DNA from: a virus
Virus record (IMG/VR): IMGVR_UViG_3300047326_000025
Span: 1-39,465 of that record
DNA: 39,465 bases
Reading direction: 5' to 3' (one strand)
Program-made: the position numbers and the translations under genes
The notes under the pieces: generated by a model
The model's database searches: none
Seen by the model: the letters and a program-made list of their open reading frames with translations, nothing else
What the model was told of the DNA's origin: nothing
In this document: positions 27,394-39,465 of the stretch, piece after piece
Position numbering within the stretch: the first letter of the stretch is position 1
Layout of the letters: every line of letters begins with the position of its first letter

Positions 27394-27998
27394 GACCACA
27401 CCTCCGGGTTATCAAGCTCCTTCTCATCATCCGACCCAGGCTCACGCTCCGCGGCAGGCTGAGCGGCAGGGGCCGCCTTAGCCGGCACCGTAGCCGCATA
27501 CGACGCGGTGTGGATGCGGAGCGCTTCCTCATCGAGGAAGCTGCGGAGAATCTCGAGCTTCGCCGTAGCCTTCGCCTTGTCGAAGGAGGGGAGCGCACCT
27601 TGCGCGAGGACTACCGGCAGAAACTCAACAGCCACCTTGTAAGCGCCTTGAAGCGAGATTCGGGGGTCTTTGGCGGCGTCTAGCGCCGCTTTGTCTGTCC
27701 AGTACGAGTCACGGTTAGACGTAGCCCCCACGTACGCAGCCTTTCCAGGGCTTGCGACAGCGGAAGTGGCCCCAGTATTTCCAACAGTTGCCGCGACCTT
27801 CTTAAACGTGGCGAGCTTGAGGGACGGCCACGTGCGGCCGTCTTTGCCGGTCTTTTGGAAGTCTTCGAAGGAGACCGTTTCTCCTTCGCTGGCCCGCGGG
27901 GGGCCCTGCGCGTCTGCGCCATACCACACTCCATTGATCTTGTAAGCTGTGAAGCCGTAATCGTTAGTCTTCGTCGTTTGAATAGTTCCTGTGATCAT
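27390..27998 (-). CDS. Probable single-stranded DNA-binding protein
   Basis: The product has 202 residues. The N-terminal 60 residues read as an OB-fold (GTIQTTKTNDYGFTAYKING, then WYGADAQGPP and GETVSFEDFQKT). A helical middle and Ala/Pro linker follow, ending in acidic DDEKELDNPEVW, like the acidic tails that let SSBs recruit partners. It is adjacent to exonuclease, endonuclease and polymerase genes. Family membership is inferred from layout rather than a precise motif. Confidence 0.6.
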   Translation of the reverse strand: MITGTIQTTKTNDYGFTAYKINGVWYGADAQGPPRASEGETVSFEDFQKTGKDGRTWPSLKLATFKKVAATVGNTGATSAVASPGKAAYVGATSNRDSYWTDKAALDAAKDPRISLQGAYKVAVEFLPVVLAQGALPSFDKAKATAKLEILRSFLDEEALRIHTASYAATVPAKAAPAAQPAAEREPGSDDEKELDNPEVWS

Positions 27999-28831
27999 GC
28001 TGCAACGTCCTCAGTAAGGAATAAGAACTCAGTTCCAGGTGCCCTCATCTCGATTAGAATCTGCACTACGTCTTCGCCAAACTCAGCCAATATAGAGTCG
28101 CGCTTGACGTCGGCGGCGTCGGCGGCGTAGGCGGCGTCGGCGGCGGCGGCGGAGGCGGAGGCGGCGGCGTAGGCGGAGGCGGAGGCGGCGTAGGCGGCGG
28201 CGGCGGCGGCGTCGGCGTAGGCGGCGGAGGCGGCGGCGTAGGCGGAGACGGAGGCGGCGGCGGCGTAGGCGGCGGCGGCGTCGGCGGCGGCGGCGTCGGC
28301 GGCGGCGTAGGCGGAGACGGAGGCGGCGGCGTAGGCGTAGGCGGCGGCGGCGGCGGCGGCGGCGGAGGCGGCGTCGGCGGCTTCTTTAGCCTTCGTCGCG
28401 TTCTCAATGGACGGATCTAAAGAGCAGAGAGTCGCGGCTTCAGTTAGAGCGGCCTTGTGCGTGCCCTTGGCTTTCTTTGCTGCTGCATTCAAGGCTAGCG
28501 GGACGTACTTCTGGATAACCAAAACAGATACCTTGGATGCAAACACCTTGTCATCCAACGTACCGGCGCTGCCAAGTTGCGCCACGGCCAATCGTCGTAA
28601 GCCCTTGGCACGTGCTGCATTGGAAGACCACCGCAAGTCATTCAACCGGATCTTAAGTTGCCGTAAAGCAGGAGATACGCAAGTTGGTTCATCCGAGTGC
28701 GGCAAGCCCATGGCGTAACAAACCGCCGCCTCGACACACATCTTTCCTGGTTCAGGAACACCTATTCCCGACACCAATCCAGCGTCTACGACGCTAAGAA
28801 CTTTCTTGGCTAATTCAACATTAATTTCCAT
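27995..28831 (-). CDS. Phage protein with long alanine/tyrosine-rich repeat
   Basis: The product has 278 residues. Residues 1-145 look like a normal globular helical domain (PGKMCVEAAVCYAMGLPHSD, later DDKVFASKVSVLVIQKYVPL). Residues about 147-243 are almost only Ala, Tyr, Ser and Asp in repeats such as AYAAASVSAYAAADAA, predicted to form one long helix. A short end domain follows (DSILAEFGEDVVQILIEMRA). The gene has its own promoter and palindrome just upstream (28862-28891). The N-terminal domain recurs in phage proteins with similar tails as far as I recall; the role is unknown. Confidence 0.7.
   Translation of the reverse strand: MEINVELAKKVLSVVDAGLVSGIGVPEPGKMCVEAAVCYAMGLPHSDEPTCVSPALRQLKIRLNDLRWSSNAARAKGLRRLAVAQLGSAGTLDDKVFASKVSVLVIQKYVPLALNAAAKKAKGTHKAALTEAATLCSLDPSIENATKAKEAADAASAAAAAAAAYAYAAASVSAYAAADAAAADAAAAYAAAASVSAYAAASAAYADAAAAAAYAASASAYAAASASAAAADAAYAADAADVKRDSILAEFGEDVVQILIEMRAPGTEFLFLTEDVAA
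28105..28385. repeat. GC-rich low-complexity DNA (GGCGGC/GTAGGC units)
   Basis: About 280 bases consist of three-base-multiple units such as GCGGCGTAGGCGGAGACGGA, which itself recurs near 28234 and 28302. They encode the Ala/Tyr/Ser repeat. Because all units are multiples of three and lack stops, several frames stay open here, producing false proline-rich reading frames. Confidence 0.85.
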
Positions 28832-29322: not shown

Positions 29323-31138
29323 GTTTCTCCTCCTCACCCTCGGACCAATGCTTCCCGGCTTTCAGCCCCACGGCCAACGGCACAGTCAACTTGATTCCGT
29401 ACAACTTCTCTAACATTTCGTATATCCACACAGTAAAAACGTCCACCACTATCGAGTTGTATTCAGATAGACGATTACTAGACACTTCGCTCACGATGCT
29501 ATCATGAATCGTATTCCGTACCACGCAAGCGTCACCAAGAGCGCCACTACGATGCCAAATCGCGGCCAAGCAAAGCGGGATGATGTCGCCGGTAGCGAGC
29601 TGCTGTATCGGGTAGTTATATATCTTGGTGGTGCCGGTAACGTATCCAGACTGCGTGATTTTGGCATCTGGGAAATAGAAGCGGTATCCGGTTTCTGTGG
29701 TGATAAATTTATCGCGTGCAGCGCTGAACGCCCAGCTAGATTGAGTTGCAGATACGCCAGAGTATCGCTCAACGAAGTACTTAATATATCGACGCTCCCT
29801 AGGCGTTCCGGATTTTCCTCCGAATAGCGGCCTAAACGTTCTAGCTTTCCCATCTTGGCGTGAACCGCCGTGATAGTCGGCGGATACCTGGTGGACGTCC
29901 AGCCTGCTAAGAATGTCTGCAAGTCCTTGGCGGTCCCGTCCCAGGTGCACAGAAATTCGGAACTCGAGCTGCCCGCCATCGCTTTCGCTAATGACGCTGC
30001 CCTCTGACCCAGCAAGAAATAGCCGCTTGAAGGCTCTCTCGATGTTTTGCCCTTGGAGTCCGCCGCGCCGCCCTGTACTGGATAGACGATCCGTATCGGT
30101 GTTGGCTTGGTTGAAGGTGAAATACATTCGCGGGTCATTCGGGTGCTCCTTGCATATAGCCATCATCTTGGTCAAGTTCTGCAGCGGCGTCTTGAGCTTC
30201 ACCAGCTCCTTAGCCACCTTCAAAAACTCTTTCTGCTCCTCCGTCTGCGCCTCGAGCTTCGCTAACGTGTGCTTATCGGTTTTGGGACTGCCGGCGCCGG
30301 TCTTTTCGACGTTACCCCGATGGTCGGTAAGCTCCGAGAATCTAAGGGTTCCATATATAAATTCCGCAAGTTGTTTCGGAGACTTCGGATTGATCCCGCC
30401 GGTAAGTCTGTAAAACTCCTTCTCCAAGGATGCGTACTTTTCCGCGTATTCTGCATAAGTCTCCGCGACCCGTTCAGGGTCTAGTGTCATTCCGTTGAAT
30501 TCAATGTCCGCGAGCGCTGGTGTAACAAGGTTCCGGCAGTAAAAGACCGGTAACAGGTCCAGCGCTGCCAATTCTTTGCGCTGTTCCAAGAATATACTTT
30601 CTGATAGCGCAACATCTTGCGCGCAGTATTCCAGTAGACTTGCATGTGGTATTTGTGAAGGACAGACCCCAGCTTTGATACAAGAGCTGACGAACGATGC
30701 TTTCGCACCCAGGCCACGCCGCTCGGCTGTGGCGGCGAGCGATAGTTCCACCTTACGATTACCGGCAAGTACCTTCTCCCCTATCATCGTGCAAGCTGGC
30801 AACACTCGTCGTAGGTCAAGCCCACATCGCTTGAGCCATCCGAGCTCAAATTTAGTGTTGTGGGCCACGAGATAATCAGCTTGGTAAATGTGCTCAATAA
30901 GAGACTGCTGGTTGAATTCATCTCCCCACTGATAATGATCCCGCCCACTTCCGCGAGATGGATGATTTTTGCCGAGACGCCAACAGGCAAGCAAGAGATG
31001 ATTTGCTGCAAGAGCTGATCCGTGTTCTGTATTGGTAGTCTCAACGTCAAGGACCACGTAGTTATCTCGGAGGTAGACGGCAGGGTCCGGGTTTCGGATG
31101 AACTCGGGGAGTTGTTCATACACCGGCCCACCCCGCAT
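29294..31138 (-). CDS. DNA polymerase, family A, with 3'-5' exonuclease
   Basis: The product has 614 residues. The exonuclease domain is complete: DVETT (Asp31, Glu33), HNTKFELGW and YCAQD. The polymerase domain has TDTDRLSSTG, motif A DGGQLEFR (Asp387), motif B with Arg427, Lys431, Phe435 and Phe439 (KARTFRPLFG), and motif C HDS (545-547). Phe439 replaces the usual Tyr and Ser the usual Glu of HDE; both occur in phage enzymes. It has no 5' nuclease domain, supplied by the separate gene at 26279. The start may be ATG 31138 or GTG 31123. Confidence 0.92.
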   Translation of the reverse strand: MRGGPVYEQLPEFIRNPDPAVYLRDNYVVLDVETTNTEHGSALAANHLLLACWRLGKNHPSRGSGRDHYQWGDEFNQQSLIEHIYQADYLVAHNTKFELGWLKRCGLDLRRVLPACTMIGEKVLAGNRKVELSLAATAERRGLGAKASFVSSCIKAGVCPSQIPHASLLEYCAQDVALSESIFLEQRKELAALDLLPVFYCRNLVTPALADIEFNGMTLDPERVAETYAEYAEKYASLEKEFYRLTGGINPKSPKQLAEFIYGTLRFSELTDHRGNVEKTGAGSPKTDKHTLAKLEAQTEEQKEFLKVAKELVKLKTPLQNLTKMMAICKEHPNDPRMYFTFNQANTDTDRLSSTGRRGGLQGQNIERAFKRLFLAGSEGSVISESDGGQLEFRISVHLGRDRQGLADILSRLDVHQVSADYHGGSRQDGKARTFRPLFGGKSGTPRERRYIKYFVERYSGVSATQSSWAFSAARDKFITTETGYRFYFPDAKITQSGYVTGTTKIYNYPIQQLATGDIIPLCLAAIWHRSGALGDACVVRNTIHDSIVSEVSSNRLSEYNSIVVDVFTVWIYEMLEKLYGIKLTVPLAVGLKAGKHWSEGEEEKHEAQAFFDM

Positions 31139-31355
31139 AAAGCTTGTCCAACCCCGCGTCCGGCTCTGCTACCAGCGGCGGCCAGAACCACCGCACCCCC
31201 AGCTCGCAGTGGCTCGCAAAGCGGGTATCACCGCCGGGGGATATGATCAGAAGCGACACCCACGTGTCGTCGTGAACTCGTGTAATTATGGCCGCGGATG
31301 GCTCGTCCGACGGTTGGTGCTTGTAGTGGACGATTCGTCCAACGGTAGGCCTCAT
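31116..31355 (-). CDS. Small conserved-looking hypothetical protein between helicase and polymerase
   Basis: The product has 79 residues. The ATG at 31355 overlaps the helicase stop (TAATG), and its end overlaps the polymerase start. MRPTVGRIVHYKHQ, PSAAIITRVHDD and a Trp-rich end (GVRWFWPP) resemble a short beta-barrel protein that recurs in phages with this N-terminal RPTVGRIVHY pattern. The function is unknown. Confidence 0.65.
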   Translation of the reverse strand: MRPTVGRIVHYKHQPSDEPSAAIITRVHDDTWVSLLIISPGGDTRFASHCELGVRWFWPPLVAEPDAGLDKLYAGWAGV

Positions 31356-32572
31356 TATTCGACCACTCCTGTCTGAAAATTGCACGCGACGGTAAAGCGG
31401 TCGTGTAAACCACTGAGTTTGTTCTTCGGGAGACTCACGCCGAGAAGGCCGTTAGCCTTCATGGGTTCGTCGCACCCTAAGCCGATCATCAGATCGGCAG
31501 AAGCAGGGAGGCCGGTCTTGGAACTGTCTACATCTCCCATCTCTAGGTATACCTTTCCATCGGCCGAGTTTCCGGCTTGCGTGATGGACACGACGAGTAC
31601 GTTGTACTCTTTGGCTATCGAGCGGGCTTCAATGCCCGCGGCCTCGAGCTCCGCCGTCCTAGACTCGGATGACAAGCGCATGTTGCGTATCTGGTCCAAG
31701 ATCACGACGGAAAAGGAACCGGATTCCAAGGAGCGGCGGACGTCTCCGAAGCTTGTGGCTTCGGCGAGATGCACTCGCCCAATATTCGCTCGAGCCAGCG
31801 CCGCGGACACGTCTGCCCGGTTATCTCTAACAAAAGCCTTTCCAACTTTGAGTAATCGACCGTATATCCTGTCCCGGTAATCTGCGGCGGGCTCTTCGTT
31901 TCCGACGTAAAGGACGTTGAGTCCTTGGTGGAGAAATCCGGCGGTGAGATTGATAGAGAAGAGGGTCTTCCCAGTCTCAGGGCGAGCGAAGACAAGGACG
32001 TGATGGCCTCTAAGAGCGCCTCCCTCAAGTCTGTCGTTGAGGACCCTTGGCCACAGTTTGATGAACTCATTATCGTTGCCTTCCTCTTGTAAGCCTTCCA
32101 AGTACTCCGGGGACAATACGTCTAGTAGACTGCTGGGCTCTTTGGTCTCTACGCGGCTCTCGCCGCTTTCTTCCCGCTCTTTCCAGAGCCGTTGCTTTTC
32201 TTCTTCCGGGGCGCCGTTCGCGAGGGCGAGCGAGAGCTTTGCATCCACGCTTGCGCGATGAACTTCTCGGATGCTTCGCTCGACATTGGCGACGGAAACG
32301 TCTTGAGGAAGACCGTGCAAATATTCTCTAATAGGGCCGGCATGCTTGTCATTGGTGAGCCGTCCAAGCAACCTTGCCTCGACATGATCTCGGCTACACT
32401 CGCCGATGTCCGGATCAACGTTTCGATATTCCGCGACAGCTCCGTAGACAGTACGGCCAAGCGGGCTGAAATCTCCTGGTTCTCCGATGCGCTCGAATAG
32501 GTCATATGCATCCTTCGACTGTAGTACCGCCGCTAATATCTCTTTCTCGAGCCGTGAAGTCGTATTCTCCAT
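31355..32572 (-). CDS. Replicative DNA helicase (DnaB/RecA-type)
   Basis: The product has 405 residues. An N-terminal helical domain resembles the DnaB primase-interacting domain. The RecA-like core has Walker A ARPETGKT (196-203, first Gly replaced by Ala), a VLYVGNEEP block, Walker B VVILDQ (289-294), and SITQAGNSADG. It would unwind DNA ahead of the phage polymerase. It lies just after the primase gene and overlaps its end by 71 bases. The substituted first Walker A residue is noted but common among DnaB relatives. Confidence 0.85.
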   Translation of the reverse strand: MENTTSRLEKEILAAVLQSKDAYDLFERIGEPGDFSPLGRTVYGAVAEYRNVDPDIGECSRDHVEARLLGRLTNDKHAGPIREYLHGLPQDVSVANVERSIREVHRASVDAKLSLALANGAPEEEKQRLWKEREESGESRVETKEPSSLLDVLSPEYLEGLQEEGNDNEFIKLWPRVLNDRLEGGALRGHHVLVFARPETGKTLFSINLTAGFLHQGLNVLYVGNEEPAADYRDRIYGRLLKVGKAFVRDNRADVSAALARANIGRVHLAEATSFGDVRRSLESGSFSVVILDQIRNMRLSSESRTAELEAAGIEARSIAKEYNVLVVSITQAGNSADGKVYLEMGDVDSSKTGLPASADLMIGLGCDEPMKANGLLGVSLPKNKLSGLHDRFTVACNFQTGVVE

Positions 32573-33284
32573 CTATCCCCCGCTTGATCCGCTCCACCGT
32601 CTCGTACTTCAAATCCCGCAACAAAGACCAGGCGTACAGCCCCAGCGGGAATTGCTCGCGATACTTGCTCAGATACAATAACGTGCGCGTGTACGCATCC
32701 CGGTCAAGTGCAACGAACGTTGGGCAGTTCCACGCCGTGGCTACTTGCGTGATCTCGTTAACACTGTCTTGTGTTAAATTAGTCCCAAGCAACGCAACGC
32801 CAGTTGCGCCGGCCTCGCGTACCTTCTCAGCCGAGAACCAGTCCTCTACCAGCACAATTGCCGGCGGGTAGAACTTCATCGTCCAATGGATGAACGGTTG
32901 GTCCGGCTTCTCGTTGTACGTAAGCGACTTGGGAGTCGCGCCGGACAAGCTGTACGCGATGTGCCCCCGGCGTTGGTGCGCCGGGCCGTCAATCCCTAAG
33001 ATGAACCTGTCGTCAATCTCGTTGTATCCCTCGACCGTCCCAGGGGGGAGCCCGAAGCGGTCGTAGATCGCCGCATCTTGCTCCGCAGTCGGTTGCTTAT
33101 ACGGCCGCGTGTAGTACCGCGGCGTACGCTCGCGCTTGATGTCGGCCGCTACCATGAGGCCGCCAAGCGGCCCCACGTGGCCGCAAGAGGCGCGGTAGCA
33201 CCGGCCCATAGGGTCGCCGTGCGACCCGAACCACGTGTACCACGATTCCCCGTGGCCGCACTTCGGGCATTCGTTGACGGTCAA
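32502..33284 (-). CDS. DNA primase (zinc-binding and TOPRIM domains)
   Basis: The product has 260 residues from TTG at 33284. That start is supported by GGAGG 4 nt upstream and by sharing TTGA with the previous stop. The N-terminal zinc ribbon has Cys6, Cys9, Cys29 and Cys34. The TOPRIM part has Glu147 (VLVEDWFSAEKV) and the DxD pair Asp194 and Asp196 (ALDRDAY). It makes RNA primers and would work with the helicase next to it, the two activities that T7 gp4 fuses into one protein. Confidence 0.85.
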   Translation of the reverse strand: MTVNECPKCGHGESWYTWFGSHGDPMGRCYRASCGHVGPLGGLMVAADIKRERTPRYYTRPYKQPTAEQDAAIYDRFGLPPGTVEGYNEIDDRFILGIDGPAHQRRGHIAYSLSGATPKSLTYNEKPDQPFIHWTMKFYPPAIVLVEDWFSAEKVREAGATGVALLGTNLTQDSVNEITQVATAWNCPTFVALDRDAYTRTLLYLSKYREQFPLGLYAWSLLRDLKYETVERIKRGIDGEYDFTARERDISGGTTVEGCI

Positions 33285-33448
33285 GCGGCCTCCGGGGCAT
33301 CGCCCCAACGGTCTGATATATCAACGTTGAAATCGAGTTCCATATCGGACGGCAAGTCGTCATAATCGCCGCCCTCGGCGATGTCGTCCGGGTGAGCGGG
33401 GGGAGCGTATGGGCGTCTATCACTGTGCGGAAAGTGTGCAACACTCAT
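33281..33448 (-). CDS. Small acidic hypothetical protein before primase
   Basis: The product has 55 residues, proline-rich at first (DRRPYAPPAHPDD) then very acidic (GGDYDDLPSDMELDFNVDIS), predicted mostly disordered. ATG at 33448 with AGAGG about 10 nt upstream. Its last codons contain the primase ribosome binding site, and its TGA overlaps the primase TTG. No family is recognised. Confidence 0.55.
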   Translation of the reverse strand: MSVAHFPHSDRRPYAPPAHPDDIAEGGDYDDLPSDMELDFNVDISDRWGDAPEAA

Positions 33449-33660
33449 GTGTGAATTACCTCTTTATACCTTGTCGAATATGTATTCATCTACTTTACGA
33501 TAATGCAAAAAAGCCTATGATTTAGCCGAAAAGTGACCAGGGCGCGCTTAGCACAGTGGCAGTGCACCACCTTGACATGGTAGCGCAAACACTAGAAAAC
33601 AAGGCATTTCCTGACTGTGTGTGCATATATTGTGCTCGAGTAAAGCGGACGTATAGAACA
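33449..33660. other. Intergenic stretch around the tRNA-Val fragment
   Basis: This 212-bp gap is the longest within the leftward gene set. Apart from the tRNA fragment it is AT-rich and contains GGACGTATAGAAC (33648-33660), a half-site like the operators elsewhere. I see no further gene. Confidence 0.4.
33541..33590 (+). other. attP: tRNA-Val(GAC) 5' half, candidate attP core
   Basis: The acceptor 5' strand GCGCGCT is followed by TA, a perfect D-arm (GCAC, loop AGTGGCA, GTGC) and an anticodon arm CCACC, loop TTGACAT, GGTAG, giving anticodon GAC. The CACCACCTTGACATGG stretch is typical of bacterial tRNA-Val. After that there is no T-arm or 3' end; AGCGC follows at once. It is on the strand opposite to neighbouring genes and about 0.9 kb from the integrase, as expected for an attachment site derived from a host tRNA. 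Confidence 0.55.
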
Positions 33661-33933
33661 CTAACTGCCGAGTGCGCGCTTCGCGAGCGACTTACAGAGG
33701 AATGGATCGCGCGCGATCTCATGTGATGGGACAGTGGCAATCTCTGCCAGAGCATTGCCTAGGCGCAAGTTCTCGTCGCCGTACTCGTTAAGTCGATCTC
33801 CCCACGTCTTTGCCATGCCTACGAGCCATTCATTCTTTTGCTCAAGCTCATCTGCGCGCCGCGCCCACTCCGTCAACCGGGAGCCGTATGCGTCATCATC
33901 TATGCTGTCGGCTATTTCTTCGGAGAGCTTCAT
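33661..33933 (-). CDS. Small helical hypothetical protein
   Basis: The product has 90 residues, acidic and helical with a coiled-coil look (LTEWARRADELEQKNEWLVG). Its ATG overlaps the SLOG gene stop by 4 bases. It is the last gene before the tRNA-fragment gap. No family is recognised. Confidence 0.6.
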   Translation of the reverse strand: MKLSEEIADSIDDDAYGSRLTEWARRADELEQKNEWLVGMAKTWGDRLNEYGDENLRLGNALAEIATVPSHEIARDPFLCKSLAKRALGS

Positions 33934-34298
33934 GACTGCTCAATTCCCTTTTGAGGCACCGATATCACGCGCACCTTCGCTGCCCTGGCTCTCCGCACCA
34001 TGTCGGCTGTCCCCGTGCCTCCAGGAAAAGCAATTACCAGATGGGGCTTACCCTCATCGAGCATTATCTGGTTGCGAATCGGACCGGCCGCGCGACCGTG
34101 CTTATTCCAGTCGGCGCGCACCCCTAATTGCGGTACATGGCAATCGTGCGCCCACGCAGCAGCCAAGCTGTCAGCACCGCGCGCAGCACCGTGAATAAGC
34201 AGCTCAATGTCGTACTGACGCAGGGTGTCGGCCATTAAAGCCGCGTCCGCGAAATCGCGTCCTCCACAAACTAGCACTCTCATTCTTCGTCCGGTCAT
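33930..34298 (-). CDS. SLOG-family (YspA-like) Rossmann protein
   Basis: The product has 122 residues. MRVLVCGGRDFAD, LLIHGAARGADSLAAAWA and ADWNKHGRAAGPIRNQIM, then VIAFPGGTGTADMVRRAR, match the YspA/cpYpsA branch of SLOG proteins, which bind nucleotides or nucleotide-derived ligands. The ATG at 34298 overlaps the preceding TGA (TGATG); other ATGs at 34313 and 34283 are possible. The family is common in phages, where a role in sensing or modifying nucleotides is suspected but unproven. Confidence 0.75.
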   Translation of the reverse strand: MTGRRMRVLVCGGRDFADAALMADTLRQYDIELLIHGAARGADSLAAAWAHDCHVPQLGVRADWNKHGRAAGPIRNQIMLDEGKPHLVIAFPGGTGTADMVRRARAAKVRVISVPQKGIEQS

Positions 34299-34411
34299 CA
34301 GGCTGATCCGCAACGGCCGGCGCCCGCGTCCGCGCCTCTTCGATGCGCTCTTTCGCGCAGCCGCTCAAGCTCTCGTACAAGACCGCCTAGCGGCATGTGG
34401 GGGATGTCCAT
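34298..34411 (-). CDS. Possible 37-residue basic protein
   Basis: MDIPHMPLGGLVRELERLRE, then Arg/Gly/Ala-rich. GGGAG lies about 10 nt upstream of ATG 34411, and the stop overlaps the SLOG start (TGATG). It sits just downstream of a promoter. Could be a true leader gene or chance. Confidence 0.4.
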   Translation of the reverse strand: MDIPHMPLGGLVRELERLRERAHRRGADAGAGRCGSA

Positions 34412-34458
34412 TTTCGCTTCGCTCCCGTCGCTCCTTTACGAAGCGACTACTCGTTTAC

Positions 34459-34488
34459 ATCCTACAGTAGTCGTATACTTAACTTCAA
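34459..34488 (-). promoter_or_regulatory. Leftward promoter after the integrase gene
   Basis: On the minus strand TTGAAG (34483-34488) and TAGGAT (34459-34464) are 18 bp apart, preceded by TTTTCCC. The spacer contains AGTATACGACTAC, resembling the spacer of the promoter at 28862. It would drive the SLOG and nearby genes independently of the integrase. Confidence 0.6.
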
Positions 34489-34501
34489 GGGAAAACGAAA
34501 T

Positions 34502-35455
34502 TTATTTCGTCTCCACTAGGTTGATATGATCCGCGTACTTCTCGAGATGCTCCGTCGATAGATGCGCGTAGTTCTCGAGCATCCGGGTGGAGGCCCATCC
34601 GCCCATCTGGGCAAGCACCCTGTCAGGTGTCCCCGCTTGCGTGTGCAAGCTAGCCCACGTGTGCCGCAAGTCGTGCCACCGGATATCAGGGAATCCCGCA
34701 GCATCTCGCGCTTTCTCCCACCAATGCCGCACGCGAATGTCTTGCGAGAACACGTATGCAGAATTCGATGTTTCGCGGCGCTTTTTGAGTACAGTTTGTG
34801 CTTTCGCGGACAAAGGCACGGTATATGTGCGCCCAGTCTTAGTCTCGATGGCCGGCACAATAGCAACGTTGCCGCGGATCCACGACCACTTGAGCCCTTT
34901 GACATTAGATGCACGCATTCCGGTTTGCACTGCAATAATTGCCATGTCCGCCACATCGGGCGGAAGATGCGGGAGTATTGTGTTTAACTGCTCGAGCGTG
35001 AGCCATTTTGGCTCCCGTTTGGGGAGCTTGTAGGCTTCGACCAGGGGGGCTTTGGCCCCTAGCGCCTTTCTGAGCACAGCCCGCACAGTATTCAGGTGTC
35101 TATTCGCCGTAGAGGCGCTACAACTGGCCTTCACCGTCTTGGCGTACTGAGAGACTACCTCCGCCGTGATCTCGTCCACGGCCTCTATATCGCGTCTCGC
35201 AAGGAGATCGCCAAACCGGGCGAGAATCATCTTATCTTGGGCGCGTGACGCCGTGCCTTCCTTGGCCTCCAACCACTCCGTGACTACATCGTCCCACTGC
35301 TTACGCGCGTCCCCGAGCTCGTCACGGCGCCAGCGCGCCGTTAGCGCTTTCCTGGCGAACTCTTCTGCCAGCTTGCGGTTAACCGTCTTTGTAGACTGGC
35401 GGGTTTTAGTGCAATACCAGTACGGAGACCCGGGACGTTTGTAAAGCAAACTCAC
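34502..35455 (-). CDS. int: Integrase, tyrosine recombinase
   Basis: The product has about 317 residues. An N-terminal arm- and core-binding region (residues 1-150) precedes the catalytic domain with Arg in TGMRASNVKGL, HDLRHTWA (His-x-x-Arg) and the nucleophile Tyr in MLENYAHLS, all in the usual order. It catalyses site-specific integration and excision between attP and the host site. GTG at 35455 shares bases with the TGA of the excisionase-like gene (GTGA); GTG at 35461 is also possible. The tRNA-Val fragment nearby is the likely attP. Confidence 0.92.
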   Translation of the reverse strand: MSLLYKRPGSPYWYCTKTRQSTKTVNRKLAEEFARKALTARWRRDELGDARKQWDDVVTEWLEAKEGTASRAQDKMILARFGDLLARRDIEAVDEITAEVVSQYAKTVKASCSASTANRHLNTVRAVLRKALGAKAPLVEAYKLPKREPKWLTLEQLNTILPHLPPDVADMAIIAVQTGMRASNVKGLKWSWIRGNVAIVPAIETKTGRTYTVPLSAKAQTVLKKRRETSNSAYVFSQDIRVRHWWEKARDAAGFPDIRWHDLRHTWASLHTQAGTPDRVLAQMGGWASTRMLENYAHLSTEHLEKYADHINLVETK

Positions 35456-35637
35456 TTGCACTTTCTCCCTCGTTGTACGAACGCAACAACGTCACTTGCT
35501 TTAAAGCGGCGGTGCCCGCCTGGCGTTGTAGTCGAAGGCAAGTATCCCTTCGCCGCCCACATCCGCACAGTAACTGGCTTCACCAACAACCGTCTAGCGA
35601 CTTGCCCCGGAGTCAAATACTCCTCGTCGGTGCTCAC
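35452..35637 (-). CDS. Excisionase-like helix-turn-helix protein (MerR-type)
   Basis: The product has 61 residues. YLTPGQVARRLLVKPVTVRM, WAAKGYLPST, and TPGGHRRFKASDVVAFVQR form a winged helix-turn-helix of the excisionase/MerR DNA-binding family. GTG at 35637 overlaps the preceding TGA. Adjacent to and overlapping the integrase gene, it probably biases recombination toward excision and may regulate the region. Confidence 0.8.
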   Translation of the reverse strand: MSTDEEYLTPGQVARRLLVKPVTVRMWAAKGYLPSTTTPGGHRRFKASDVVAFVQRGRKCK

Positions 35638-35795
35638 GCACGCACCAACCGCAAAAACTCCATCACTTCGTGATGCAAATCAAGGCGTTTGCCGTCGTCA
35701 ATCTCGTACTGCCGGCATATGCGCTCGAATGCTTCAGCTAATGTTATCCCAACAGCTTCTTTGGTCTCTATGACGGATCTCACCATCTCCGGCAT
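35634..35795 (-). CDS. Very small hypothetical protein before the excisionase
   Basis: The product has 53 residues, predicted helical (GITLAEAFERICRQYEIDDG, then LHHEVMEFLRLVRA). Its TGA overlaps the next GTG. It follows the 75-residue gene by 14 bases. Operon packing supports expression; no family is recognised. Confidence 0.5.
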   Translation of the reverse strand: MPEMVRSVIETKEAVGITLAEAFERICRQYEIDDGKRLDLHHEVMEFLRLVRA

Positions 35796-35809
35796 AGTGT
35801 AGGGAGACC

Positions 35810-36037
35810 TCACGCCCCCTTCGGGGCGGTTTCTTTAAGCATCTTGTCTATCTGCTTGACTAGGGCCTTATGGCCGTGGGCCTCGAGGATAACTCGACAG
35901 TCACCTACCAGATCACGCCACAATTGCTGATATCCCTCAAGATACTCAATTCTAGCAATAGAGAACCGCAGCGCACCAATATTCTCCATGAGAGAGTCTT
36001 GGCGCTTACGCAGCTCCTCCCCTGAGATCATGTTCAT
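35810..36037 (-). CDS. Small helical hypothetical protein
   Basis: From ATG 36037, which overlaps the upstream TGA (TGATG), the product has 75 residues. It is helical throughout (EELRKRQDSLMENIGALRFS, then LVGDCRVILEAHGHKALVKQ). A farther ATG at 36142 has AAGGAG 8 nt upstream and would add 35 polar residues overlapping the previous gene. No family is recognised. Confidence 0.55.
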   Translation of the reverse strand: MNMISGEELRKRQDSLMENIGALRFSIARIEYLEGYQQLWRDLVGDCRVILEAHGHKALVKQIDKMLKETAPKGA

Positions 36038-36384
36038 CACTTCGGCTGCATTGTCCGAGACTTGACCAGGTTTTTGTTGTTTTCCTCCTTGTACGTCTTG
36101 CCGTACATTCGAGCGGTCGGCACTCTTTCCATTAATTGCCATTCGCCATACTCCTTCTTGTCGTCCGAATAACGTGTATAGGCGTAGAACGCTCGACACG
36201 CAAGCACCTCGCTCGCACATCTGCGAAAGAACTCGCACGGCGTTCCGTCGCCGCGATCTACGCACGGGGGTTTGGGTTGACTCGCCACCGCGCAAGCGAG
36301 GCGTGCTCCCCTTGTGTTCCGTTGGATTAGGTCGGCAACGTCTAGTTCAAGCCCTTCAAACTTAATGTCTTCTTCCCTTGACAT
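36037..36384 (-). CDS. Small cysteine-rich hypothetical protein
   Basis: The product has 115 residues. ATG at 36384 (MSREEDIKFEGLELDVADLI) is 2 bases after the previous stop and is preferred to in-frame upstream codons. Residues about 45-66 contain four cysteines (CVDRGDGTPCEFFRRC, later LACRAF) that could bind zinc. The C-terminus is polar. No family is recognised. Confidence 0.55.
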   Translation of the reverse strand: MSREEDIKFEGLELDVADLIQRNTRGARLACAVASQPKPPCVDRGDGTPCEFFRRCASEVLACRAFYAYTRYSDDKKEYGEWQLMERVPTARMYGKTYKEENNKNLVKSRTMQPK

Positions 36385-36386
36385 GA

Positions 36387-36599
36387 TTACGCTACTTCTA
36401 CGTTGTCGTCTAATAGGCGGGTGTGTCTTGACTGTTCCAGTCGCGCGGTGTGCTCGAGGCAACGCTGTCCCGTAGGCGTAACGGTCTCAACGCTAACATC
36501 GCGTCCGAACTCCAAGCAAAGCCACTCGGCGCGGGCTATCGCTTGTGCGCGTTGGTCAAAACCGTACCGTCTACCGTTTACGTAAAATCCGGGGCGCAT
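36387..36599 (-). CDS. Small hypothetical protein
   Basis: The product has 70 residues. ATG at 36599 lies 2 bases after the stop of the repeat protein; upstream in-frame codons are only the repeat read in another frame. MRPGFYVNGRRYGFDQRAQA and VETVTPTGQRCLEHTARLEQ look like a compact alpha/beta protein. No family is recognised. Confidence 0.55.
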   Translation of the reverse strand: MRPGFYVNGRRYGFDQRAQAIARAEWLCLEFGRDVSVETVTPTGQRCLEHTARLEQSRHTRLLDDNVEVA

Positions 36600-36601
36600 G
36601 A

Positions 36602-37303
36602 TTAGAGCGCTCCTAGACTTTTGAACTTGTCTACTACGGCGGTAAGTAGGCGCTCCCGCGCAGCGGACCATGCCGCAGACTCTGCCGCGGACCTTGCCGC
36701 GGACCCTGCCGCGGACCATGCCGCGGACCATGCCGCAGACTCTGCCGCGGACCTTGCCGCGGACCTTGCCGCGGACCATGCCGCAGACCCTGCCGCGGAC
36801 CTTGCCGCGGACCTTGCCGCGGACCTTGCCGCGGACCATGCCGCAGACTCTGCCGCGGACCATGCCGCAGACTCTGCCGCGGCCCTGAGATCGGCACGCC
36901 CCGTATTCAGGTAGTCAAGAACGACCGGCGGAACTGGCGTTCCCCAGAGATGGACAGCAGATAAGGCAGACGTTCCCCAGAGATGGACAGCAGATAAGGC
37001 AGATTGTCTGGCGTGCTCGTAGAGCAGGTCAGTCGCGTCAAAGCGAGCGACTATCTTTCGCTTCTGCGCGACTACCTTGTCATCCCCGTACTCGATTTGG
37101 CCGCCCATCTCGACCAGGCAAAGCGTGGCTCCTGGCGCGTATTGGAGCGCGTCAAACGGGTGCAAGGATGCGTGCAGCCCGTAGTTGCGCATTGATATTT
37201 CTTTCCGAGAGATCCACCGGCCGTTGGCCGGAATTGGTTTCCCGTCGCGGAGCGTTTCGCCGACGAAGTGATAAGCCAAGACTGGCTTCTTTTTTGTGCT
37301 CAC
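36602..37303 (-). CDS. DUF7666-like protein with Ser-Ala-Ala-x repeat tail
   Basis: The product has 233 residues from GTG 37303, which shares bases with the preceding TGA (GTGA). The N-terminal domain (VLAYHFVGETLRDGKPIPAN, GLHASLHPFDALQYAPGATL, then an acidic-basic strand region) matches what I recall as DUF7666 in phages. Next comes an 11-residue unit repeated twice (ALSAVHLWGTS), and about 18 copies of Ser-Ala-Ala plus Trp, Arg, Glu or Gly, probably one long helix. It ends with LLTAVVDKFKSLGAL. The role is unknown. Confidence 0.75.
   Translation of the reverse strand: MSTKKKPVLAYHFVGETLRDGKPIPANGRWISRKEISMRNYGLHASLHPFDALQYAPGATLCLVEMGGQIEYGDDKVVAQKRKIVARFDATDLLYEHARQSALSAVHLWGTSALSAVHLWGTPVPPVVLDYLNTGRADLRAAAESAAWSAAESAAWSAARSAARSAARSAAGSAAWSAARSAARSAAESAAWSAAWSAAGSAARSAAESAAWSAARERLLTAVVDKFKSLGAL
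36664..36885. repeat. Tandem 12-bp repeat (CCGCGG-containing)
   Basis: About 18 tandem copies of a 12-base unit close to TGCCGCGGACCA, with variants at the last bases, encode the Ser-Ala-Ala-x repeat of the DUF7666-like protein on the minus strand. Each unit contains the palindrome CCGCGG or CCGCAG. Copy number could change by slippage in steps of four residues. Confidence 0.9.
36938..37003. repeat. Perfect 33-bp tandem duplication
   Basis: The 33 bases at 36938-36970 are repeated exactly at 36971-37003, duplicating 11 residues in the DUF7666-like protein. Exact identity, including third positions, points to a recent duplication. Confidence 0.9.
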
Positions 37304-37443
37304 GAGTACACCTGTACGAGCATGTAGACGGCTACTAGACCCCACACCAAAGCGAGTACGACGGTTATGCCTTGCGCAATGGCGTATTCATCTCGAGCGG
37401 GACACCACATCTGACGGTGGCGGAAACGTCTATTCGGGTTCAT
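37300..37443 (-). CDS. 47-residue single-pass membrane protein
   Basis: A basic, His/Trp-rich N-terminus (MNPNRRFRHRQMWCPARDEY) is followed by one transmembrane helix (GITVVLALVWGLVAVYMLV). AGGAG lies 6 nt before ATG 37443, and the gene overlaps both neighbours (ATGA, GTGA). Junctions and ribosome binding site make it a convincing small gene. The function is unknown. Confidence 0.6.
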   Translation of the reverse strand: MNPNRRFRHRQMWCPARDEYAIAQGITVVLALVWGLVAVYMLVQVYS

Positions 37444-37610
37444 GCGGCTCTCCTGGTGGTTGCAAGTTGGCTTTGGGTCTCCGACGCTTGGCGCTCATAC
37501 GTCCACTGCTGGATCATCGGCCACAGCTCCGGAGGAGCTTCCACGATGTTGTATTCAGCTACTTCGTAGCTCTTTACGTCGTGGCGGGGGTAGATCGTGT
37601 ATGTGTTCAT
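37440..37610 (-). CDS. Small hypothetical protein
   Basis: The product has 56 residues (MNTYTIYPRHDVKSYEVAEY, then NIVEAPPELWPMIQQWTYER). The ATG at 37610 overlaps the preceding stop (TAATG). Early, tightly coupled gene of a series of tiny host-takeover-type candidates. No family is recognised. Confidence 0.6.
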   Translation of the reverse strand: MNTYTIYPRHDVKSYEVAEYNIVEAPPELWPMIQQWTYERQASETQSQLATTRRAA

Positions 37611-37819
37611 TACGGTTTCACTCTCCAATATCCTTCGTTGCACTCAGGGCAGGGTTGGTCGTCTGCATCGCATAGCGCGGCCGCGGCCCCGTATCCGTTG
37701 TCATCGCCGCCGTACTGAATCGTGACGAGGCCAGAGCCGTTGCAGATACTGCAGTCCATCTCGTGTGCACACTTCGAACATACGCAGATGATGTTCTCCC
37801 CGCCGACGTTGCGTGTCAT
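37610..37819 (-). CDS. Small zinc-finger-like protein
   Basis: The product has 69 residues with seven or more cysteines in CxxC-like pairs (CVCSKC, CSICNGSG, CPECNEG), the pattern of a DnaJ-type zinc ribbon or rubredoxin-like knuckle. It probably binds one or two zinc ions. Early-operon position suggests regulation or host interaction, not shown. Confidence 0.65.
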   Translation of the reverse strand: MTRNVGGENIICVCSKCAHEMDCSICNGSGLVTIQYGGDDNGYGAAAALCDADDQPCPECNEGYWRVKP

Positions 37820-37832
37820 GTCTGTTTGCTCC

Positions 37833-38030
37833 TTACTGTGCGGTGATCTTGCTGTAATCGTGGTTAAGCCAAGCTTTGCCGTGCTGCACCTCCAGGTGCC
37901 CGTCGCGCACGCGGACTTGGGGAAGGTGTTTGGCTTTAATCATGGTTGCCTTGGTGTAGGTAGACAGATACACGGCGCGACCGGCAGAGATCTGCTCTTT
38001 GATCCACTCGAGTTTCTTGCTGGCTTCCAT
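37833..38030 (-). CDS. First gene of the leftward operon, small hypothetical protein
   Basis: The product has 65 residues. MEASKKLEWIKEQISAGRAV, then a beta part with TYTKATMIKAKHLPQVRVRD and HGKAWLNHDYSK. GGAG lies 7 nt before the ATG. As the first gene behind the early control region it would be made first after infection; the basic beta-rich look could suit nucleic-acid binding. No family is recognised. Confidence 0.65.
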   Translation of the reverse strand: MEASKKLEWIKEQISAGRAVYLSTYTKATMIKAKHLPQVRVRDGHLEVQHGKAWLNHDYSKITAQ

Positions 38031-38418
38031 CTCCCGTCTCCGTTTCCTTTACCGTGCCGCCATTACACCATACGAAACGGTAGACGTCTAGTAAACATTT
38101 GAATAGTGAGATATGCGTCAAACTATTGACACGTGGATAAAAATAGTTATTATTGTCTAATACACCACTTGCTTTTCGCCTAACAGACGCTCAAACGGTC
38201 AATTATCGCCTACTAGAGAAGCACCAAAGACGTGCAAACGTAGGATTTTGCTTACAATTTGTACCCGCTATGTACGCTACCGCACGGTAGACAGTCTAGT
38301 TGAGTGTCTAATATAGTTCTCGTTAGCGGGCTAATCGGCCCGCGGATCTAGCGAAATAACTAGATTCGTAACCTGAGCCTAGGCCGAGCGGAGAGAGTCG
38401 GCCGGAAGACGCAAACAT
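38031..38418. promoter_or_regulatory. Divergent control region with repeated operator-like palindromes
   Basis: No gene lies in these 388 bases between the leftward operon and the rightward regulator gene. ACGGTAGAC-GTCTAGT occurs at 38077-38092 and, with one extra A in the centre, at 38284-38300. TGTCTAATA occurs at 38154-38162 and 38305-38313. A rightward TTGACA (38126-38131) and a leftward TTGACG (38116-38121) lie back to back, though neither has a convincing -10 at normal spacing. The arrangement suggests a regulatory switch region. Confidence 0.6.
38326..38403 (+). promoter_or_regulatory. Three-hairpin leader before the OrfA-like gene
   Basis: Three perfect 6-bp hairpins follow one another: GCGGGC/GCCCGC (38326-38343), ATCTAG/CTAGAT (38346-38365) and GGCCGA/TCGGCC (38382-38403). 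They end 15 bases before the ATG at 38419, close to the ribosome binding site, so translation control by RNA structure is possible. Confidence 0.45.
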
Positions 38419-38745
38419 ATGGAGATTATAGATATCATGCCTACTAAGGGTAAGACGAAGAAGCCGCAACACGTCATAGACAAGTACGTGAAGCGATACA
38501 TGGCCGGAGAGCAGGCCACATCTCTCGCAAAGGAGGCGGGAGTCAGCAAACCAGGGTTTTACTTGTGGATCCAAAAGCACAAACAACAGATCCTCAAGCA
38601 AGCTAAGACGGCCGGCATGACGCCGGCGGATGCGGCAACCGCGGATAAGCGAGAGCTCTTGATCGAGCTCGAGCAGTTGAGGCTTGAGAACCGAAAGCTG
38701 CGAGAGAAGGTCGTAGCCATGATGATTAAGAGCGGGGAGATATGA
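38419..38745 (+). CDS. IS3/IS911 OrfA-like helix-turn-helix and leucine-zipper protein
   Basis: The product has 108 residues. After a basic leader (MPTKGKTKKPQHVIDKYVKR), AGEQATSLAKEAGVSKPGFYLW is a helix-turn-helix. The C-terminal LIELEQLRLENRKLREKVVA is a short leucine zipper, exactly the layout of transposase OrfA of IS3-type elements. No OrfB, inverted repeats or target duplication are visible, so it appears to be a stand-alone regulator, perhaps the one that binds the nearby palindromes. The start may instead be the ATG at 38437. Confidence 0.7.
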   Translation: MEIIDIMPTKGKTKKPQHVIDKYVKRYMAGEQATSLAKEAGVSKPGFYLWIQKHKQQILKQAKTAGMTPADAATADKRELLIELEQLRLENRKLREKVVAMMIKSGEI

Positions 38746-38880
38746 GACTAGTAGATGAACATTAACAAATCTTAACGAACAGAGAAAAGCTAACGGCTAC
38801 AAGGATGTAGCCTATATGGCTATTAGACTATTTTACTATTTCCCTTGAAATCGGGAGAATCGCATGATAGGGTATTAGAT
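38746..38880 (+). other. Intergenic stretch upstream of the structured RNA
   Basis: This AT-rich stretch contains one perfect hairpin, GGCTAC/GTAGCC (38795-38812), shortly after the OrfA-like gene, without a T-run, and TATTAGAC (38821-38828), the reverse of the GTCTAATA motif. The promoter of the structured RNA lies at its end. No gene is seen. Confidence 0.4.
38845..38873 (+). promoter_or_regulatory. Promoter for the structured RNA
   Basis: TTGAAA (38845-38850) and TAGGGT (38868-38873) with a 17-bp spacer, preceded by TTTCCC. The start of transcription would fall near 38880, about ten bases before the closing stem of the folded RNA. Confidence 0.6.
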
Positions 38881-39065
38881 ATAAAGATACGTAAGATGCA
38901 GTTTCAGAGTCAGAGACAGCCTTTGGGGGCTGTCGAAGAGTCAGAGTGAGGCGCAGTAGTTAACTCCGCCTCTCAGCCCGGCGGAACCAAAGGAGCCGGG
39001 CAGTAAGACGACGAATACTGACGCTGCCCCTTGGTCTAGAGCTGACTCTGACACTGCATCTTACG
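38881..39065 (+). ncRNA. Candidate structured RNA with long closing stem and complementary loops
   Basis: The ends 38890-38913 and 39042-39065 pair over 24 positions with a single mismatch. Inside lie hairpins GACAGCC/GGCTGTC (38915-38934), GAGGCG/CGCCTC (38948-38972) and GCCCGGC/GCCGGGC (38976-39001). CCTTTGG in the first hairpin's apical part (38920-38926) is perfectly complementary to CCAAAGG in the third hairpin's loop (38987-38993), allowing a kissing interaction within or between molecules. A second AGAGTCAG copy (38937-38944) could replace the first in pairing with CTGACTCT. No protein gene fits here, and no known RNA class is recognised. Confidence 0.7.
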
Positions 39066-39085
39066 GGAAATATTATTTATTTCCC
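39065..39085 (+). other. Hairpin directly after the structured RNA
   Basis: GGGAAATA (39065-39072) and TATTTCCC (39078-39085) form a perfect 8-bp hairpin with a 5-base loop. It shares its first base with the closing stem and its last bases with the upstream element of the next promoter. It might terminate the RNA, but no T-run follows. Confidence 0.45.
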
Positions 39086-39115
39086 TTGATTGCATAGTAT
39101 ACGTATATGTATACT
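39086..39115 (+). promoter_or_regulatory. Promoter with inverted repeat, for the gene at 39151
   Basis: TTGATT (39086-39091) and TATACT (39110-39115) with an 18-bp spacer, preceded by TTTCCC. The spacer and -10 contain AGTATAC-GTATAT-GTATACT, an inverted repeat with 7-bp arms covering 39096-39115, a likely operator. AGAGG for the gene lies downstream. Confidence 0.65.
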
Positions 39116-39150
39116 GATACTTGAGATACATAGAGGTAAAGTATAACTAT

Positions 39151-39465
39151 ATGTCAAGTATTGATGATGAGCGTAAGCGAATCTATAAAGGTGTTTACTT
39201 GGATCTGGTAGAGGACCTTCGGTCCGATAATGCAATAGCTCGAGCAGCCGATAAGGCTGCGGTTAGCGTAGATGCAGAGACTATTGCTCTCTACCGTAAG
39301 TACAACATGATGGACAAGCTCCCGCGCCGGCTACAAGGTGCGCCGGCCGATGCTTGGGGTTCGTATAACGGTAGCGGTCACCGTAAGGCCGAGCGCCCTG
39401 TCTCGAGCGAGAAGAGCGAGCGAGATCGCCAGCTAGTTATGGAATGGAGCAAGCGACTAGCTCCG
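39151..39465 (+). CDS. Helical protein running off the window edge (continues at base 1 if circular)
   Basis: From ATG at 39151, 105 codons are open to the end of the window. MSSIDDERKRIYKGVYLDLV, then a helix-turn-helix-like part (NAIARAADKAAVSVDAETIA) and a basic, Ser/Arg-rich C-terminal third. AGAGG lies about 14 bases upstream, and a -10-like TATAAC is closer. A DNA-binding role is plausible because it sits behind an operator-bearing promoter next to the OrfA-like gene. No family is recognised; the end would be the TAG at 31-33. Confidence 0.6.
   Translation, partial: MSSIDDERKRIYKGVYLDLVEDLRSDNAIARAADKAAVSVDAETIALYRKYNMMDKLPRRLQGAPADAWGSYNGSGHRKAERPVSSEKSERDRQLVMEWSKRLAP

Follow-up and report, generated by a model that had tools for sequence, protein, structure and literature searches.

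The intergenic region at positions 33449..33660 of the stretch of DNA analysed here, which lies between two minus-strand genes, is probably the attachment site (attP) of a temperate phage of the P22-capsid type. As judged from its letters and from related genomes, this candidate site would target a bacterial tRNA-Val(GAC) gene, with a crossover in the anticodon loop and with both the promoter and the tRNA 5′ half supplied by the phage. The whole stretch, hereafter the window, is a 39,465-base IMG/VR virus record that carries P22-coat-type capsid genes, a minus-strand replication operon and one tyrosine integrase. Confidence in the attP reading is limited because no exact attB was found, the acting integrase is ambiguous, two phages with related genes (G002 and L215) lack the half, and arm-type integrase repeats were not detected in the window or in G004.

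The tRNA half is canonical. On the plus strand, positions 33542..33578 run from the acceptor strand to the anticodon loop of a tRNA-Val(GAC), and each part can be read directly: GCGCGCT as acceptor positions 1-7 (33542-33548), TA as positions 8-9 (U8-A9; 33549-33550), a D stem with four of four pairs between GCAC (33551-33554) and GTGC (33562-33565), a D loop AGTGGCA in which the conserved bases A14, G15, G18G19 and A21 are all present, A26 (33566), the 5′ anticodon strand CCACC (33567-33571), and the anticodon loop TTGACAT (33572..33578) with the anticodon GAC at 33574-33576. The 3′ anticodon strand that follows, GGTAG (33579-33583), completes four of the five anticodon-stem pairs. tRNA likeness is over by 33583, and the T arm and 3′ half are missing downstream. 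When bacterial tRNA-Val(GAC) genes are compared by BLAST, the alignment stops at 33581-33583, just beyond the loop, the top match covering 38 nt at 89% identity. An earlier note on this DNA had described a tRNA-Val(GAC) 5′ half ending at the anticodon arm, and direct reading, a structural scan and the BLAST end point all bear this out; its start moves from 33541 to 33542 if GCGCGCT is taken as the acceptor strand. Another register, GGGCGC with a 2-nt insertion, was dropped in favour of GCGCGCT, which gives a canonical half with zero insertion. The sequence of the half, for comparison with host genes, is GCGCGCTTAGCACAGTGGCAGTGCACCACCTTGACAT.

ARAGORN calls no tRNA at the half and finds a single tRNA in the window, a tRNA-His at 597-672, and an Rfam scan of 33000-34300 did not find a tRNA, returning only one RNase MRP match, which is meaningless. 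The missing 3′ half was sought throughout the window by letter search and by a scan for T arm, acceptor and CCA, a pattern that shuffled sequence never produced with CCA; none with CCA was found. Near the tRNA-His gene, a second tRNA-like stretch lies just upstream at 538-596 (TTCGTCTAAAGGTAAGACCCGG...) and folds no better than shuffles. At 793-828 there is a hairpin, TCACC-TTACAAT-GGTGA, that resembles an anticodon arm and is flanked by TTGAC/GTCAA; the region around it (760-870) has a fold somewhat more stable than those of shuffles (z -1.8).

Halves as intact as that of the window occur far above chance. The structural scan, which required T8-R9, a D arm and an anticodon arm, covered the window and related phage loci (1,519,673 bases of phage DNA, with many overlapping pieces) and gave nine matches, five of them distinct: the window half, the half of a sister phage, the half of a third phage (G004) and two tRNAs of G007 that are complete, T arm included. 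Matches without a T arm are thus the three halves only, two of them independent. First-order Markov shuffles passed through the same structural filter gave one match in 4,213,164 bases. A broad T-armless pattern searched in IMG/VR gave no match.

The half is embedded between the replication operon and the integrase region. On one side, a 55-aa acidic ORF (33281..33448, minus strand) flanks the site, followed by a primase-like gene (32502..33308, minus strand), with which the large genes of the adjacent replication operon begin and which is syntenic in G004. The acidic ORF resembles its G004 neighbour weakly (E=0.02), and treating these two small acidic ORFs as homologues was rejected as too strong. 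Ahead of the half, a sigma-70-like promoter sequence (TTTACG-16 nt-TATGAT, 33494..33521, plus strand) points into it, a weak signal with one such sequence found against 0.4 expected. Beyond the loop, 33579..33629 (plus strand) would form the P′ side, a remnant of the 3′ anticodon stem followed by non-tRNA DNA. The integrase, a P22-Int-like protein of 319 aa (34502..35461, minus strand), is the sole PF00589 match in the record, and a small HTH_17/MerR-type protein (35452..35637, minus strand) is, by its position, a candidate excisionase. The earlier note had placed the half beside the integrase; the two do share a region, but the integrase stop at 34502 lies 0.9 kb from the half with two ORFs between, against 0.37 kb in the sister. 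Part of this interval, 33661-34419, is an exchangeable cassette (a 90-aa ORF and a SLOG/YspA-type protein) in whose place the sister has 210 nt. Just past the integrase 3′ end, at 34420-34501, there is an inverted repeat, CGACTAC...GTAGTCG, kept in the sister and possibly serving as a terminator or as another att core. Arm-type integrase repeats were sought near the core: counts did not exceed those in shuffles in the window and in G004, and the sister has one marginal 9-mer (16/200 shuffles). A megablast of 30000-39465 against the phage collection gave no match.

A second, independent 5′ half occupies the same syntenic site in another phage. G004 (IMGVR_UViG_3300020034_000047), whose major capsid protein (MCP) is 87% identical to that of the window, has a tRNA-Thr(CGT) 5′ half running from 2142 to about 2100 of locus L092 (minus strand), also without a T arm. 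This half stands directly upstream of a homologous primase-helicase-polymerase operon (37%, 57% and 50% identical, respectively) and has the same direction relative to the integrase side as the window half. Its identity to bacterial tRNA-Thr genes stops at the anticodon stem. The 35-nt core from D arm to anticodon stem (TAGC...ATGCG) is found exactly in 8 of 180 genomes sampled from the class of G037, and with at most one mismatch in 13 of the 180; the five matching genomic loci run in ARAGORN are all tRNA-Thr(CGT). The two phages resemble each other in a 5′ half at one place and in one orientation, with related MCP, helicase and polymerase, and differ in the tRNA (Thr(CGT), not Val) and in the 275-aa tyrosine integrase that in G004 stands between the half and the rest, its 3′ end (stop codon) about 46-50 bp from the half. 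This integrase subfamily is missing from the window. Used as bait, it recovered four further viral contigs (L201-L204), none with a half, and its bacterial relatives are distant (7/398 genomes, 32-36% identity). The promoter consensus used for the window has no match in G004. In all, the G004 genome encodes two distinct tyrosine integrases, separated by about 5 kb (L084 and L092).

The sister phage (contig 3300047334_000061), the only match recovered from IMG/VR with the primase as bait, places a sharp edge at the anticodon loop. Outside the variable parts it is about 99% identical to the window, and the two sequences agree for 243 consecutive nt ending at 33578, the last base of the loop. Past the loop, 16 differences fall within 51 nt (33579-33629, gap positions counted), i.e., 31%, in this single genome pair; 27 identical bases follow before the cassettes diverge. 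Identity up to the loop and divergence after it are what one would predict were function required of the 5′ half and its promoter alone, and the edge fits either such a left-side-only tRNA constraint or a recombination at the loop that exchanged the arms. In the 3′ anticodon strand, the window, the sister and G004 have one mismatch each, different every time. Elsewhere, internal repeats at 28106-28381, within the ORF 27995-28831, differ in length from those of the sister.

These observations lead to a model in which the integrase would exchange strands within the 7-bp loop TTGACAT, by analogy with tRNA-targeting tyrosine integrases, the inverted repeat of the anticodon stem around the loop serving as the core sites. 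The phage 5′ half and the upstream promoter would sit on the integrase-distal side, the reverse of the usual layout. Upon integration, the phage promoter and 5′ half would be joined to the host 3′ half, so that tRNA-Val would be rebuilt at the integrase-distal end of the prophage, and the host promoter and host 5′ half would be displaced to the integrase side. Such a loop crossover would explain why tRNA features stay canonical as far as the loop and no further, why the 3′ anticodon-strand mismatches differ among the three phages (this strand being unused after integration) and why a promoter-like sequence precedes the half.

In favour of the attP reading, the integrase itself belongs to a tRNA-using group. 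Relatives at E<=1e-35 were found in 27 of 369 bacterial genomes from the class of G037 (32-40% identity), and among the 30 nearest bacterial loci listed, 28 have a tRNA beside the integrase gene, 62-170 bp from the matched region. In 28 of these 28 loci the tRNA is intact, on the opposite strand and with its 3′ side toward the integrase, which is the standard 3′-half layout; the orientation of tRNA to integrase is thus kept across the group, but the window and G004 carry the other half. The nearest relatives also argue against the attP reading by their opposite layout and by distance (60-170 bp against 0.9 kb), as does the fact that the integrase adjoining the half in G004 is of the other subfamily. 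The scan for 3′ halves found them in the capsid relatives G014 and G023 and in Burkholderia phage Mana, each adjoining the integrase 3′ end; those of G014 and G023 start in the anticodon arm, cut at the same loop as the window 5′ half. This standard feature of an attP, an integrase-proximal tRNA 3′ half extending to CCA, is missing from the window. Among P22-Int-like phages, Mana (Int 35% identical) illustrates the difference well: both have an attP-like tRNA piece, which in Mana is a 3′ half with CCA on the integrase side, near the integrase 3′ end, and in the window a 5′ half on the far side. With the helicase as bait, 11 loci were recovered, and halves were present in just the two phages already known to carry them; neither G002 nor L215, with their related Int and replication genes, has one.

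The search for a host gave related tRNA genes and no exact partner. The loop and an 18-nt stretch, GCACCACCTTGACATGGT, match real tRNA-Val genes, and tRNA-Val matches to the half occur in 125 of 185 genomes at E<=0.001 and in 55 of 211 at E<=1e-6. An exact 30-mer of the half has no match in the 84,980-genome GTDB collection and matches only the sister in IMG/VR; a stricter half pattern gave none in the 398 genomes of the phylum. Capsid relatives in GTDB genomes are limited to a Proteobacteria MAG (L101, 69%) and a Microbispora MAG (L102, 57%), and the given Val pattern is missing from both. No lysogen of the window phage was found in the collections searched. The bacterial tRNA-Val with an exact shared stretch that the earlier note had proposed to search for was not recovered in these collections. 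Its larger proposal, an attP for integration on the anticodon side with 5′ half and promoter from the phage, fares better: the second half in G004, the 3′ halves of G014 and G023 cut at the loop and the sister divergence support it well, and the lack of an exact 30-mer in GTDB or of a lysogen, together with the 3′-half layout of the nearest integrases, stands on the other side.

The strongest rival, improbable in our view, is that the site is a relic: a former attP whose cognate integrase, e.g., one of the G004 275-aa type, was lost, the present integrase at 34502 acting instead at a site close to its 3′ end that has escaped recognition. It is indeed a different integrase that adjoins the half in G004, and the window has no such integrase; the DNA between the half and the integrase gene is a replaceable cassette, and the attB sites of the integrase relatives lie 62-170 bp from the integrase 3′ end. 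Against this rival, the window has no tRNA 3′ half with CCA, and 34314-34505 matches bacterial genomes weakly (8/171, best E 6e-5 at 34338-34375). The half is also canonical throughout, and the sister has it unchanged, although the two strains are too close for strong evidence of conservation.

Two further explanations are very unlikely. The earlier note had raised the alternative of a functional T-armless tRNA-like RNA, a decoy or regulatory RNA closed by GCGCU/AGCGC pairing. The sequence does offer a 5-bp closing stem (GCGCT at 33544-33548 and AGCGC at 33582-33586), and the sister retains the stem with a U-G pair, but folding of the window pieces and of the sister piece is no better than shuffles (z 0.29-0.90), no terminator was found, the sister divergence begins within the proposed RNA, and the G004 half has no equivalent acceptor complement past its anticodon stem, so that this alternative is not supported. 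A resemblance arisen by chance, or a tRNA fragment captured by accident and without a role, would agree with a half that matches none of the sampled tRNAs exactly; this explanation is hard to reconcile with a frequency far above that in shuffles and with a half from another tRNA at the equivalent syntenic position, both halves being cut at the anticodon arm. Least probable of all is tRNA-dependent lysogeny as described for mycobacteriophage Fionnbharth (PMC10865867), with a short core, a tRNA that is not rebuilt and a whole phage tRNA of the same isotype: a short anticodon-loop core and one full phage tRNA would be compatible with it, but that tRNA is a tRNA-His, not a tRNA-Val, and the whole structured 5′ half is kept, which this mechanism does not need.

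Integration through a tRNA 5′ half, as preferred here, has precedents. As reported for the Islander database, 3760 of 3919 mapped islands have a 3′ tDNA fragment and 159 a 5′ fragment (PMC4383910), in agreement with the view of the earlier note that the 5′ layout is the less common one. In the latter islands, according to the same report, the 5′ part of the tRNA gene comes from the element and the crossover is often centred on the anticodon (PMC4383910). They share with the window the element-supplied 5′ part; they are mapped, integrated islands, whereas the window holds only the phage-side half of an environmental phage. For pTN3-like archaeal integrases, a review of archaeal recombinases describes the attB as the 5′ half of a tRNA gene, the rebuilt tRNA being driven by the integrase promoter, and states that use of the 5′ half is seldom met in bacteria (PMC8371274). 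Here too the 5′ half is shared, as would be an element promoter for the rebuilt tRNA; the family differs in being archaeal and in driving its tRNA from the integrase promoter. With these precedents the kind is known and uncommon, and the window and G004 phages make up a new case. Literature searches by topic, rather than by phage name, found no paper on the window phage or its relatives.

In most elements that enter tRNA genes, the rebuilt tRNA is transcribed from the host promoter. tRNA-Val(GAC) is probably essential, as GUC decoding implies, and if the attP reading is true, the phage would take over the promoter of such a host tRNA. A wider proposal, which we hold tentatively and consider doubtful, is that the family keeps one slot, upstream of its replication operon, as a dedicated 5′-restoring attP that can be retargeted (Val, Thr) and may be served by different integrase subfamilies, the capsid relatives having the opposite polarity. 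The essential host tRNA of a lysogen would then depend on a phage promoter placed back to back with that of the replication genes, and tRNA supply might be tied to the lysis-lysogeny switch. The family offers a natural comparison between capsid-related genomes whose tRNA half, 5′ in some and 3′ in others, is cut at the same anticodon loop. This comparison makes it testable what sets the polarity of integration into tRNA genes and whether host tRNA supply is under prophage control.
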